A stretch of DNA of 64,000 bases from assembly GCA_945872365.1 (NCBI GenBank), contig CAMBZJ010000005.1, positions 1-64,000 on the forward strand, given 5' to 3'. The translations under genes and the position numbers were made by a program. The notes below the pieces were generated by a model. That model did no database searches, was not told the DNA's origin, and worked only from the letters and a program-made list of their open reading frames with translations. This DNA is from Klebsiella pneumoniae (GTDB lineage: Bacteria > Desulfobacterota > Binatia > UBA12015). Shown here in pieces: positions 3,107 to 38,746 of the stretch (the first letter of the stretch is position 1; each line of letters starts with the position of its first letter).

Positions 3107-4400
3107 TTGGCGGGTGGCCGTAGGGTGGTTCCACCGCGGGCGCGGGGCGCGCGTGCACGACGCCCATCGCCTCCAGCTTGGCGGCAACCACCTCGGCCGA
3201 CAACCGCTGCGCGAGTTCATTGGGGTGATGGTCGACCGGGTGCGCCTGGAGCGATTCGGCGCTGTGGCCGGCATAGGCGTCGCGCAGGTCGACCCAAGGC
3301 GTGCCGTGCTTTTCGAGGATCCCTTCCAGCACCCGGTGGGCCTTGGCGAAGGGGTAGGCGTCGCCCAGATCGAACAGGATCGGATAGACCGCGACGAGCA
3401 CCTTGGCGCCGGTCGAGCGCACGTCGTCGGCGAAGGTGTCCACCATGAACTCGGTCTTGGCCAGGCCCTCGGGGTTCACCTCGACGTCGAACGCATCGAT
3501 GTACGAGTCGCGCGTAAGCGCGGTGATCTTGCGCTGCTCGGCGCGCGTGGCGATGAGGTCGTAAAGGCGGGACCAGCGCCGCAGCTCCTTCCGCCAGCCG
3601 CTCGAGCCCTCCATGAAGCCGGGTCGGATGATGATCATGTTGTCCGCCCTCTGCCTCTTGGCGTCCCCGGCGTCGACCCGCAAGGCGTCGTTCAGCACGT
3701 AGCCGAGTACGACCACGTCGGCATCGAGATCGAGGTGCTCCCGGTGGATGGTGATCTCGACCTCGGTATTGATCCCCGTCATGCCCAGGTTGACCACCTC
3801 GACGGCAAGCTCCGGGTGACTGGCCTGCAGGACGGCCTGGAGCTGCGCCGGCATGGTGTCGCCGTCCTTGACGCCCTCGCCGAAGATGAAGGAGTCGCCC
3901 ACGGCCAGGACGCGGAAGGTGTTGGGCGCACGCTCCTTCCTGTGGTCGGCGCCGCGGTGCGCGTGGCTGTTGGTGCGAAACTCGGCGCAGAAGGGCGTGT
4001 TCTCGACGCGCTCCAGCGGGATCGCCTTGTAGTGCTCGGTCTCGATCGCGTACGCGCCCTTCCAGGCCTCGGGTTCGAAGCGGTCGAAGTAGCCGCGCGG
4101 GTTCGATGGGTAGCAGTCGGCGCCGTGGTTGTCGGGATCGCGGTGCTGCCTGGGGGTGTAGCTGATGATCTGCTTGCCCTGAACCTGGGGTGAGGCGAAG
4201 AACAGGCGCACGAACAGCTCGAGCAGCGCGGTCGCGACGACGATCGATTCGACGACGAGCATGCTTGCGTACAGGACGCGCCGGCCCGGCGTCGGCGGCG
4301 GCGCAGGTGTGGACGTGCCCGGCGGGGCCGGCTTCGCCTCGGGCGATGCTTCAGGCAACGCCGGCGTGACCGGCCTCGTACTCGGGGATCGACCGCACAT
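3087..4400 (-). CDS. Membrane-anchored SGNH/GDSL hydrolase-like protein
   Basis: A 437-residue protein with a proline-rich N-terminus, one membrane segment (about residues 43-69) and an SGNH-fold domain. The nucleophile block is VLAVGDSFIFGEGV with Ser170; the Gly/Asn blocks fit VVNLGMTGINT and VVLGYVLND; a C-terminal DHHPNELAQ supplies the Asp/His pair. Such proteins act as esterases or O-acetyl transferases on cell-envelope polysaccharides. It heads the overlapping cassette with the sulfotransferase and glycosyltransferase, so modification of the same glycan is the simplest role. The ATG at 4400 has only a weak SD-like AGG; Met47 at the membrane segment is an alternative start. Confidence 0.75.
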   Translation of the reverse strand: MCGRSPSTRPVTPALPEASPEAKPAPPGTSTPAPPPTPGRRVLYASMLVVESIVVATALLELFVRLFFASPQVQGKQIISYTPRQHRDPDNHGADCYPSNPRGYFDRFEPEAWKGAYAIETEHYKAIPLERVENTPFCAEFRTNSHAHRGADHRKERAPNTFRVLAVGDSFIFGEGVKDGDTMPAQLQAVLQASHPELAVEVVNLGMTGINTEVEITIHREHLDLDADVVVLGYVLNDALRVDAGDAKRQRADNMIIIRPGFMEGSSGWRKELRRWSRLYDLIATRAEQRKITALTRDSYIDAFDVEVNPEGLAKTEFMVDTFADDVRSTGAKVLVAVYPILFDLGDAYPFAKAHRVLEGILEKHGTPWVDLRDAYAGHSAESLQAHPVDHHPNELAQRLSAEVVAAKLEAMGVVHARPAPAVEPPYGHPPNGVVPR

Positions 4401-30915: not shown

Positions 30916-31305
30916 GTCGTGGCTCCTCCTCCGGCCGAGCCGGCTACCGCCGACGAGAGTCGATGCCACGGCTCGGGCTGCTGCGGATTCCGGCGATCGC
31001 CATCACCCCGATCGGTCGATGGAGATCCGAGCGAGGCGACGCTGGACCCGGGTTGCGAGTTCGTCGTCGATTCCGGTTTCCCCCGTGACGGGCCCCTTGG
31101 CAAGACGCGGCGGCGGCGGCGAGCAGGCCTGGTGCCCACCGAGGGGTCATTTTCACGGGGCTCCTCGACTTCCGCGCGGGACTGGCAGGTTCACGGAAGC
31201 GCCCGCGGGTGCGCGGCCGGCGTCCGGGCGTACGCGCCTCGGAGAGCCTGCAGGCTCGATCGCCGGAAATACTTCGGGGCCCCCCTGGCGAGGAGACTCT
31301 TGTCG
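30916..31305. other. Non-coding gap between GST and Tat-leader ORF
   Basis: About 390 bp with no reading frame that looks like a protein, no tRNA and no terminator with a U-tract. A short (CGG)n tract occurs near 31110. The gap should hold the divergent promoters of the GST gene and the Tat/oxidase pair, but no clear -35/-10 pair was recognised. Confidence 0.5.
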
Positions 31306-31407
31306 ATGTCGGAGCGAAACCAGGGCATGTCACGTCGTTCCCTGCTGAAGGGCGTTGCGGCGAGCGGCGTGGTCGTCGCGGTTGGCGGACTCGTTCCGGA
31401 GAGTTAG
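31306..31407 (+). CDS. Tat signal peptide ORF (33 aa) ending in an in-frame amber codon
   Basis: A 33-codon ORF encoding MSERNQGMSRRSLLKG followed by a hydrophobic run (VAASGVVVAVGGLVP) and then TAG. This is a textbook twin-arginine leader with nothing behind it. AGGAGA lies upstream of ATG 31306. The FAD oxidase ORF begins 9 nt after the TAG in the same reading frame, with GGGAGG in the gap. The simplest readings are a nonsense mutation that cut an exported oxidase away from its leader, or a programmed arrangement in which most oxidase is cytosolic and read-through gives exported enzyme. It is not known as a free functional peptide. Confidence 0.7.
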   Translation: MSERNQGMSRRSLLKGVAASGVVVAVGGLVPES

Positions 31408-31416
31408 GGAGGCGAT

Positions 31417-32853
31417 ATGACTCATGGGTCGGCCGAAGTGCCACAATCGAACTCGGATTGGTTCTCGCAGCGTCTCTGGAGCCTCAGCGGCAACAAGGTG
31501 CCGATGAAGGGTGGCGGTGCGATTCCCGTGAAGAGCCTCGCTCCGCGCGTCTTCCTGCCCCGCTCCGCCCAGGAGATCGCCGACCTGGTGAAGTCCCTGC
31601 CGGCGACGACGCCGATCGCGTGCGTGGGCGGCGCTCACGAATCCTCGAACGTGGCCATGCTCGCCAGCAGCGAGGCCGTGATCCTGGACCTGGCCAACCT
31701 GAAGACCATCGAGTTCCAGGGTGACGTCGAAGACGCGCTGGTGACGGTGGGTGCAGGTGTGGTCTTTCGCGAGCTCGTCGAGGCGGTGAATACGCATCGA
31801 GGCGCCCTGCCGGTCGGCACCGGCCCGGGCGTCGGTGTGGTCGGGTATCTCGTCAATGGTGGCCTGAGCGGTTACTTCTCACGGCGACTCGGGTTGCTGG
31901 GGCAACGCGTGGTGAAACTCACCGTGGTCACGCCGGCGGGCGACCTCCGCGTCGTCACGCCACGGGATGAACTCTTCGTGGCCATGCTGGGTGCCGGCAG
32001 CGCGCTCGGCATCGTCGTCGATGCGACGATCCGCATGGAACCCGAAAGTGTGATTCGGGGTGCGGAGCAACGGGTCGTCGCGTTCGAGACGCGCGAACAG
32101 GCGGTGGCGTTCTCGCGCGGCGCCCTGCGCTTCATGAGGGATCGGGCCTTTCCGGACGAATCCGTCTCCATGGAGCTGGTGGTCACAGGCACGAAGGCGC
32201 TGGTGGCGACCGTGGTCTTCTACGACTCCTTCCAAGGGAGCACCGCGGCATTCGTGAAGCCGCTGGAAGACCTGGCGGTCCGCCTGAATCTTCCGGTGGT
32301 GGCGCAATCCCGCTGGGGATCGTGGTACGAGACTGCCGCCGCCTTGTGGCCCGTGATCACCGCACAGAAGGGCAACCCACTCGCCACGCTGCAGCACTGC
32401 ATGGGCACCAAGGGCACGCCCGACGACGCGATCCTGGACTTCATCTGCAACACGATCATCGCCGAGGCGCCGCTGGACGAAGCGACGCTGTCGCTGGTGG
32501 AGATCCGAACGCTGGGCGGCGCGGTCCTGTCGGAAAGGAAGCTTCCGAGCGGCAATTGCGATCACGCGTTCTTCGTCGACCTGATCACCCTGTACGACGC
32601 CGGGAACAAGACGGGCGCCGAGCGGCAGACCATCGTCGATCTGACCAGAAACGTGATCGACAAGGCCCGACGTGTGGACGGCCTGACCGTGGACTTCAGT
32701 GGCACGCACTCGCAGCCCGACGATCCGGATCGAAGCGCTTCGCCGACGGTGATCTTCGGCTCCCAGGCGATGGCGGAAACCGTGAAGAGACTGAAGAAGG
32801 AGATGGACCCGGGCAATCGCCTCCGATTCAGTCCATTCGCGAAGCTCCTGTGA
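31417..32853 (+). CDS. FAD-binding PCMH-type oxidoreductase
   Basis: A 478-residue flavoprotein. The PCMH FAD domain covers about residues 40-215: PRVFLPRSAQEIADLVKSL, TPIACVGGAHESSN (the region where GGHS-type enzymes bind FAD through His), VTVGAGVVFRELVEAVN, and GTGPGVGVVGYLVNGGLSGY. The C-terminus closes with KKEMDPGNRLRFSPF, as in D-arabinono-lactone oxidase and berberine-bridge-like enzymes. The substrate is unknown. The start has GGGAGG but no leader; the Tat leader is in frame immediately upstream behind a TAG. The gene uses more CTG and GTG codons than its CTC/GTC-rich neighbours, a hint of separate origin. Confidence 0.8.
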   Translation: MTHGSAEVPQSNSDWFSQRLWSLSGNKVPMKGGGAIPVKSLAPRVFLPRSAQEIADLVKSLPATTPIACVGGAHESSNVAMLASSEAVILDLANLKTIEFQGDVEDALVTVGAGVVFRELVEAVNTHRGALPVGTGPGVGVVGYLVNGGLSGYFSRRLGLLGQRVVKLTVVTPAGDLRVVTPRDELFVAMLGAGSALGIVVDATIRMEPESVIRGAEQRVVAFETREQAVAFSRGALRFMRDRAFPDESVSMELVVTGTKALVATVVFYDSFQGSTAAFVKPLEDLAVRLNLPVVAQSRWGSWYETAAALWPVITAQKGNPLATLQHCMGTKGTPDDAILDFICNTIIAEAPLDEATLSLVEIRTLGGAVLSERKLPSGNCDHAFFVDLITLYDAGNKTGAERQTIVDLTRNVIDKARRVDGLTVDFSGTHSQPDDPDRSASPTVIFGSQAMAETVKRLKKEMDPGNRLRFSPFAKLL

Positions 32854-36466: not shown

Positions 36467-36946
36467 TCAGGCTTCGCGCCAGAGCCGACCGCGGCTACGC
36501 ACCGGCTCGAGCAACGAAGGATCGTTCGGCGCCATCGCGTGTCCGAGCGGGTGCGGCGGCCGGGCCTCGAAGCGCAGCCCTTCGAGCACGCCGCGGTCCG
36601 CGTAGTAGCTCACGTAGGCGAGGAACATGAGCGTCGGCACGAAGCCGGGATCGGCCACGGCGACCTCCTCGAGCACGCCGCGGCGCTCCTCGGCCGAGAG
36701 ATCGGCGAAACAGCCGCGCCCCCGCGTCGCCGCCGTGCGGTCGAGCGCGTCGAGTCCGAAGGCGATCGGCACGCGCATGTCGGGCAGCAGCCGGAAGGTC
36801 GCTTCGAGCAGACCCGCCGCGACCGTGAATCCGGCGCCCGGCAGGCGTCCGTCCGCGCTCGCCGGGATGATCTCGTCGAGCACGGCGACGAGCGCCCGCT
36901 CGCGCGCCGGGGTGAAGCCGTCCTGATTTCCGCCGCTGTCGCTCAT
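36467..36946 (-). CDS. Gluconate 2-dehydrogenase subunit 3-like protein
   Basis: A 159-residue helical protein of the gluconate-2-dehydrogenase small-subunit family. The start FTPARERALVAVLDEIIPAS and ADGRLPGAGFTVAAGLLEATF matches the family signature (LDxIIPxDxxxPGA); the end GVLEGLRFEARPPHPLGHAM carries the usual GYPPP-like loop in altered form. Such subunits accompany GMC-type flavoprotein dehydrogenases and usually carry a Tat signal, which is absent here. The gene starts 24 bp after the GMC stop, so the two form a pair. A cytochrome c subunit is not found nearby. Confidence 0.75.
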   Translation of the reverse strand: MSDSGGNQDGFTPARERALVAVLDEIIPASADGRLPGAGFTVAAGLLEATFRLLPDMRVPIAFGLDALDRTAATRGRGCFADLSAEERRGVLEEVAVADPGFVPTLMFLAYVSYYADRGVLEGLRFEARPPHPLGHAMAPNDPSLLEPVRSRGRLWREA

Positions 36947-36970
36947 CGCGTGCTCCGCCGCCGCCCGCGG

Positions 36971-38584
36971 TCAATCGAGGAGGTTCGCCAGGTTGCGCTT
37001 CATCGCGTCGCCGATGCGCAGCGCCAAGGCCTGAATCGTGTTGGTCGGGTTCACGGCCCCGGCGGTGGGGAAGATGCTGCCATCGACGACGAAGAGGTTC
37101 TTCACGTCGTGGCAGCGGCCCCACTCGTTCACCACCGAGGTCGCCGGGTCGGTGCCCATGCGTGCCGTGCCCATCAGGTGCCAGCCGGCGACGCGTAACA
37201 GCGGCTCGGCGAAGGTCTCGCGTGCCCCCGCCGCGTCGAGCAGTTCCTTTGCCCGGGCCGCACCGTGCGACATGAGCCGCTCGCTGTTCTCGCCCAGCCG
37301 GTAGGTGATCTTCGGCGCGGGGATGCCGCTGCCGTCCACCAGCGTCGGGTCCAGCGTCACCGTGTTCGTCTCCTCGGGAAGATCCTCGCCGATGACGACC
37401 AGGCCCGCCGTGCGGTCGAAGATCTCCGCGTAGGATCGATGGTGGTCGGCGCCCCACGGCAGTCGTCCCCAGCCGAATCCCATGAGAGCCGTGAATACCG
37501 GACCGAGGCCGCGCAGGATCTCGAACGAGTAGCCGCGGGCGAAGCCGCGCGCGGCGTCGGTCTCGTAGAACTCCTGGCTCATGATGCAGCAGCCGGTCGC
37601 CCCCTTGTAGCCCTCGAGCGGCTCGTCGAAGAGCCCGGTGACCATCGCGTAGGGATGGAACATGAGGTTGCGACCGACGAGCCCGCTGCGGTTGGCGAGA
37701 CCGCCGGGAAAGAGCTTCGACTTCGAGTTGAGCAGGATGCGCGGCGTACCGATGCCGTTGCAGGCGAGCACGACGACGTGGGCGCGCTGGCGGCGCTCGA
37801 CCCCCTCGGCGTCGTAGTAGATCACGCCGTCGGCGAGACCGTTTTCGTCGAGCGTGACCTCGCGCACCCGGCAGCCGGTCTCGAGCCGCACGCCGCTGCG
37901 CAGCGCCGGCGGCCAGTAGGTGACGTCAGTGCTCGACTTCGCACCCTGGGCGCAGCCGGCGAGGCAGGTTCCGGCGTTGATGCAGGGCGCGCGTCCCTCC
38001 CAGGGTTCGCTGATGATCGCGCTGTCCGACGGCCACCAGTGCCAGCCGAGCCGATTGAAGCCGTGCGCCAGCGTCTCGCCGAGTTTGCCGAGCGGCAGCG
38101 GCGGAAGCGGCGGCCGCTTGGGCGGGTCGGCGGGATAGGCGGGGTCACCGGCGAGTCCGGAGACGCCGGTCATGCGCTCGTTCAGGTCGTAGAACGGGGC
38201 AAGCGTGCGGTAGTCGAGCGGCCAGTCGACGCCGACGCCGTCGAGGCTGCGGGCGCGGAAGTCCGACGGGCGGAGCCGCGGGAAGTGGCCCGCGAACAGG
38301 ATCGTGCTGCCGCCGACGGCATTGAACATCGAGACCGCGATCGGTGACTCCGCGTCGTTCACCGGGTAGTCGGCGGGCAGCTTGCGGTCGTTCGGCGACA
38401 ATCCGAAGTCGGCGAGCCGTCGCAGCTCCCAGTCGATCGAATTGCTCGGGAACTCCTCCTGCTTCATCCAGCCGCCCTGTTCGAGGCAGAGGATGTCCAT
38501 CTTCGTCTCGGCCAGCGTCCAGGCGAGCGCCGCGCCCGAGGCCCCGGCACCCACGATCAGCACGTCGACGATTCGCTCCGACAT
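36971..38584 (-). CDS. GMC-family FAD oxidoreductase
   Basis: A 537-residue flavoprotein. The N-terminal ADP-binding fold is VDVLIVGAGASGAALAWTL (residues 6-24); GMC signature 1-like residues are in NAVGGSTILFAGHFPRLRPS; a cysteine-rich stretch INAGTCLAGCAQGAKSSTD lies mid-protein; the C-terminal catalytic pair is in AGWHLMGTARMG (His) and AVNPTNTIQALALR (Asn). Family members oxidise alcohols, sugars or sterols. The cysteine pattern and partner subunit point to a dehydrogenase that passes electrons onward rather than to oxygen. GAGGGAG lies about 12 nt before ATG 38584. Confidence 0.85.
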   Translation of the reverse strand: MSERIVDVLIVGAGASGAALAWTLAETKMDILCLEQGGWMKQEEFPSNSIDWELRRLADFGLSPNDRKLPADYPVNDAESPIAVSMFNAVGGSTILFAGHFPRLRPSDFRARSLDGVGVDWPLDYRTLAPFYDLNERMTGVSGLAGDPAYPADPPKRPPLPPLPLGKLGETLAHGFNRLGWHWWPSDSAIISEPWEGRAPCINAGTCLAGCAQGAKSSTDVTYWPPALRSGVRLETGCRVREVTLDENGLADGVIYYDAEGVERRQRAHVVVLACNGIGTPRILLNSKSKLFPGGLANRSGLVGRNLMFHPYAMVTGLFDEPLEGYKGATGCCIMSQEFYETDAARGFARGYSFEILRGLGPVFTALMGFGWGRLPWGADHHRSYAEIFDRTAGLVVIGEDLPEETNTVTLDPTLVDGSGIPAPKITYRLGENSERLMSHGAARAKELLDAAGARETFAEPLLRVAGWHLMGTARMGTDPATSVVNEWGRCHDVKNLFVVDGSIFPTAGAVNPTNTIQALALRIGDAMKRNLANLLD

Positions 38585-38746
38585 CGGTTCGCTCGCTCCC
38601 TCCGCGGCCGGGATCCGCCCGCGACGACGAATCCACCCCCCCGCGCGGCGTCCATGAAACACGACCCGGGCCCCGAAGCCAGAGTCGACGGCCCGCGTTG
38701 CGGGCTCGGCGGGGCGCCTCTAGTAGAGAGAGCACAGGCCGCGATC

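Follow-up and report, generated by a model that had tools for sequence, protein, structure and literature searches.

The locus at 31306-32853 of the window (the whole stretch of DNA that was analysed, 64,000 nucleotides) raises the question of why an amber codon stands between a Tat leader and an FAD oxidase. The region is one forward frame, which translates as MSERNQGMSRRSLLKGVAASGVVVAVGGLVPES*GGDMTHGSAE... and closes at TGA 32851-32853. The TAG at 31405-31407 is followed by GGA GGC GAT and then by ATG 31417, which begins ten bases past the last base of the TAG; the TAG overlaps the Shine-Dalgarno (SD) site of this ATG. The layout described in the initial annotation, with leader, TAG, three codons, SD-preceded ATG and oxidase reading frame all in one frame, was confirmed. 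The oxidase gene is the sole full copy in its own genome (contig C40 has a 31% partial match). The features of the locus are:

31290..31296, + strand: SD-like GAGGAGA of the leader reading frame, before TTG 31300 and ATG 31306 (anti-SD duplex -8.9 kcal/mol)
31306..31404, + strand: Tat leader of 33 codons, MSERNQGMSRRSLLKGVAASGVVVAVGGLVPES, with RR motif and hydrophobic core intact (PF10518, TIGR01409)
31405..31407, + strand: in-frame amber TAG, a sense codon in the nearest leader-fused relatives (CCT in L003 and L004, TCT in L007)
31405..31412, + strand: UAGGGAGG, the SD site of the internal start, which includes the stop codon (-11.8 kcal/mol)
31417..32853, + strand: stand-alone predicted PCMH/VAO-type FAD oxidase, 478 aa, complete (PF01565), ending in TGA

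The leader alone passes the Pfam profile TAT_signal (PF10518: 23.8 bits, cut-off 22.7) and the NCBIfam profile TIGR01409 (25.6 bits, cut-off 16.7). It has a Tat motif of the S-R-R-x-x-L/F-K type and a moderately hydrophobic core near the N-terminus, SRRSLLKGVAASGVVVAVGG, and the Tat translocon is represented in the same genome by TatC (236.6 bits). The earlier description of the leader as intact applies to the n-region and the hydrophobic core; it does not apply to the c-region, since the residues before the TAG (LVPES) contain no A-x-A. On inspection, the best A-x-A in many relatives is just downstream of the TAG position. Under translation table 11 the in-frame TAG at 31405-31407 means that the leader is not joined to a folded passenger in one polypeptide, whereas in the relatives leader and passenger are parts of the same polypeptide. 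The adjacency of leader and oxidase is not due to chance, because the four best matches of the leader in the relatives' genomes each immediately precede the orthologue. The window leader is homologous to the orthologue-fused leaders of loci L003, L004, L006, L007 and L008, with 57% identity over 30 residues to that of L003 (genome G148).

The oxidase reading frame is intact. It matches FAD_binding_4 (PF01565; 66.2 bits, 3.3e-18) and aligns over its full length with homologues at 62-75% identity. The predicted structure is of moderate quality (mean pLDDT 65.7) and was used for the general fold only; its Foldseek fold matches are BBE-like and oligosaccharide oxidases. Searches by sequence and by fold place the protein, at low identity, among the PCMH/VAO-type flavin oxidases. 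It shares FAD_binding_4 and the general fold with such enzymes (BBE-like, glucooligosaccharide oxidase, 6-hydroxy-D-nicotine oxidase), but is only 14-20% identical to the solved structures of this type in the fold match and, unlike them, has no Pfam domain in its C-terminal half. H74 (in GGAHESSN) is invariant in an alignment of 19 sequences and lies at the position expected for the FAD-linking histidine; the covalent link is putative. Elsewhere in the window, at 36467-38662 on the minus strand, a gluconate 2-dehydrogenase subunit 3-like protein (PF13618) adjoins a GMC oxidoreductase. Such subunit 3-like proteins often carry a Tat leader; the reading frame in the window, as called, starts without an evident one.

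What stood at the TAG position before can be judged from the relatives. Eight loci, 66-75% identical, came from a scan of genome contigs; they lie in Gammaproteobacterial, Planctomycete and cyanobacterial MAGs and in one genome labelled Klebsiella pneumoniae. Searches around those eight loci added Planctomycete homologues, for a total of 22 near-complete homologues, the window included. An in-frame RR leader is directly fused to the oxidase in 16 of these 22, across Gammaproteobacteria and Planctomycetes. The refuting case named in the initial annotation, in which every orthologue would begin at the second ATG and lack an upstream leader, therefore does not apply. The frame is open through the TAG position in all leader-fused homologues, and no homologue has a stop there. 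L003 and L004 read ...VLAS-CCT-GGA-GGC-GAT-ATG and L007 reads ...LLAN-TCT-GGA-GGC-GAT-ATG, while the window reads ...VPES-TAG-GGA-GGC-GAT-ATG. As these relatives have both a fused leader and a sense codon, the TAG evidently took the place of a sense codon in an ancestor whose leader was fused. Export is accordingly ancestral in the oxidase family, and the TAG is specific to the window's genome.

Two of the relatives' records deserve comment. The L004 record is titled Klebsiella pneumoniae (MAG MH-08apr19-131), yet by whole genome it groups with the order of the uncultured Gammaproteobacterial MAGs, and the species label is probably wrong; its gene is 96% identical in DNA to that of L003. L038 (G766 contig C211) is a second, partial oxidase copy covering query residues 242-478 at 70% identity, in a genome that also has a full copy.

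Leader loss recurs in the oxidase family by other routes. L005 belongs by whole-genome taxonomy to the order that also contains L003, L004 and L007. It lacks the leader, which has been replaced by upstream sequence with in-frame stops, and starts at METV behind its own SD (-9.1 kcal/mol). The N-termini of L009 and L010 are similarly long but contain neither RR nor core, and the leader of L032 has GR in place of RR. At least five changes of leader state are forced by the starred branches of the tree, in which the window is placed beside the L003-L007 clade with moderate support (78/72). The Planctomycete locus L010 also has a frameshift near query residue 175, around locus position 3512, which together with the loss of its RR and core may reflect either decay or an assembly error. 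The L034 homologue (minus strand, from about 2895 downwards) lies close to a contig end; an in-frame TGA interrupts it early in the mature part, and no leader can be recognised. This damage makes L010 and L034 uncertain.

The initial annotation had offered, as its first alternative, a nonsense mutation confining the enzyme to the cytosol, and this is the best-supported explanation, since the orthologues have a leader and a sense codon. Probably a real, fairly recent nonsense mutation made a new start of an internal site that was already there, and the enzyme is now cytosolic. The gene would derive from a family of Tat-exported FAD oxidases, and in the lineage of the window's genome a sense codon just past the hydrophobic core of the leader would have become TAG. 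Ribosomes starting at the leader would make a free peptide of 33 residues and then stop. The oxidase would be made from the internal ATG, whose pre-existing SD GGAGG (coding for Gly-Gly in the relatives) would have been lengthened by the TAG to UAGGGAGG; ribosomes could start at this ATG directly or, having terminated at the TAG, re-initiate there. An oxidase made from the internal ATG lacks the leader and would therefore be cytosolic. This account takes the TAG to be real in the organism and the change to be recent, with the internal start presumably used and the enzyme presumably folded and active in the cytosol.

The computed strength of the SD sites agrees with an internal start. Anti-SD pairing before ATG 31417 is -11.8 kcal/mol. 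The leader start has -8.9 kcal/mol, and no other ATG in the oxidase coding sequence has a site stronger than -4.9. The internal GGAGGCGATATG is already present as coding sequence in the nearest leader-fused relatives: in L003, L004 and L007 the same ATG has -9.3 kcal/mol, in the top ~1% of the family's 340 internal ATGs. The TAG lengthens the site and gains about 1.5 to 2.5 kcal/mol over TCG, CCG, TCT or CCT. Selection for the SD is only a possible reason for the TAG, because many sense codons would strengthen the pairing as much.

The age of the TAG was approached through the constraint on the leader. Between the window and L003 the leader has a dN of 0.26 and a dS of 1.61 (dN/dS about 0.16, from 26 leader codons only), and the mature part a dN of 0.16 and a dS of 0.84 (dN/dS about 0.19). 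No excess of nonsynonymous change that would mark a relaxed leader was seen against L003 in the 26 codons. In a simple neutral simulation with 0.05 substitutions per site, 48% of cases kept RR and an uncharged core; the share fell to ~5% at 0.2 and <1% at 0.3. Because an unconstrained leader rarely survives such divergence, and the dS to L003 is about 0.8, either the TAG is recent compared with the divergence from the sampled relatives or the leader remains under constraint or in use. The simulation thereby sharpens the earlier wording, "young or selected", and ties the age to the L003 split.

A leader without excess decay also fits one that is still used, or a sequencing error. The evidence base for the TAG is one consensus codon in one assembly, and the main rival to a nonsense mutation is a one-base consensus or sequencing error in what is really a single leader-fused, Tat-exported oxidase like those of the relatives. 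This is unlikely, though the leader does look functional otherwise (RR and core intact, its own SD, no excess nonsynonymous change), TatC is present, and a miscall of one base makes TAG from TCG, with Ser found at that position in L007. However, neither codon seen in the relatives (CCT, TCT) is a single step away from TAG. The assembly is good (97% complete in 57 contigs), and apart from the TAG the frame of the gene is clean. Consensus errors are rare per base, and this one would have to fall between the leader and a strong SD-ATG.

A different reading extends to the clade of the window, L003, L004 and L007. Here GGAGGCGATATG would be a functional second start that gives both exported and cytosolic oxidase, and the TAG of the window would be a one-codon switch fixing the cytosolic form. 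In L003, L004 and L007 the SD of the internal start is stronger than that of the leader start itself, which is -5.6 kcal/mol or weaker. The proposal is nevertheless doubtful. No bacterial Tat enzyme dually localised by an internal start was found in the open-licence literature. Separately, selection on the internal SD was sought as synonymous conservation and is not supported: the window and L003 use the same codon at 61% of conserved residues, so that identical GGA GGC GAT would arise by chance with a frequency of about 0.23, which is not significant, and L003, L004 and L007 are too close to count separately in this test.

The gene is sporadic in its occurrence. Among 148 searched genomes of the window's class only the window's has the orthologue, the other 147 lacking it, and it is likewise absent from the other 394 of 395 genomes searched in a sample of the phylum. 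No relatives were found in the window's genus or family beyond the window itself, nor any on plasmids or viral contigs. No conserved neighbour or operon partner occurs in the flanking ORFs of the eight loci, except in the near-identical pair L003/L004. Because of this patchy occurrence and the lack of recurring neighbour genes, the gene counts as stand-alone and was probably moved horizontally. Such a distribution could also suit a little-used, horizontally acquired locus in which the TAG is the first step to a pseudogene, and the damage at some homologous loci (the L010 frameshift, the L034 in-frame stop) points the same way. Decay of this kind is quite improbable in the window, where the oxidase reading frame of 478 codons is intact, with conserved family residues and coding-like GC3. 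The dN/dS of the mature part also speaks against it, though this value is averaged over a long branch.

Programmed dual targeting, in which low-level amber read-through would yield an exported form and internal initiation a cytosolic one, is very improbable. It would draw on a frame open on both sides of the TAG, the intact leader, TatC and the strong internal SD, but there is no CUA anticodon among the 43 tRNAs found in the genome, the PylS profile for pyrrolysyl-tRNA synthetase reaches 27.7 bits, far under its cut-off of 178.15, and no stimulatory RNA fold beyond shuffled expectation lies 3' of the TAG (z 0.33). The stop is shared by no homologue, and a recent mutation accounts for the intact leader with no need of selection. 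Read-through plus internal initiation, the second alternative of the initial annotation, thus gained no positive support. TAG terminates 5 of the 33 heuristically called genes of the window, and the genetic code of the genome is ordinary. Recoding of TAG as a sense codon is rejected by the missing CUA tRNA, the PylS score below cut-off and the normal use of TAG as a stop here.

If the nonsense mutation is real, the change of one codon, readable at the level of individual bases, would have turned an exported enzyme into a cytosolic one in one step. The coding sequence of Gly-Gly-Asp-Met happens to read GGAGG-N4-ATG, and a stop placed before it would both end the exported form and improve the new start. 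With its repeated losses of the Tat leader, the family offers a small natural test of whether export is necessary for a Tat-exported flavoenzyme. There is also a warning for annotation: calling the gene from 31417 conceals the leader, and taking the TAG for an error conceals the relocation.

Dual targeting by stop-codon read-through is known in eukaryotes, and there too an in-frame stop lies between two segments of which one is a targeting signal. In the window, unlike in those cases, the targeting signal is encoded ahead of the stop, conservation of the stop is lacking and no read-through signal was found.

It is established that prokaryotic ribosomes re-initiate near a stop at an SD-preceded start (PMC5972666). 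Like termination-coupled re-initiation, which usually links two genes (PMC5972666), the window has a start codon with an SD only a few bases from a stop; the putative case here would instead connect a discarded leader with the enzyme of the same gene.

A close comparison is the loss of signal peptides among orthologous bacterial proteins, which in Enterobacterales is common and happens mostly by loss of the N-terminal region or a shifted start, with fewer losses by substitutions; that study covered Sec signals, and Tat clusters were excluded (PMC5952966). For such a loss by start shift, the tree and the leader states show an ancestral signal in the oxidase family, and a downstream SD-ATG, the predicted start, lies at 31405-31419. 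As in that study, the orthologues differ in their N-terminal export signal, and both start shift (window, L005) and substitution (L009, L032) are seen. The window differs in having a Tat signal, a single in-frame stop and an old leader that is still readable. The event is thus most likely an ordinary, known process, the loss of an export signal by start shift, in a well-preserved state.
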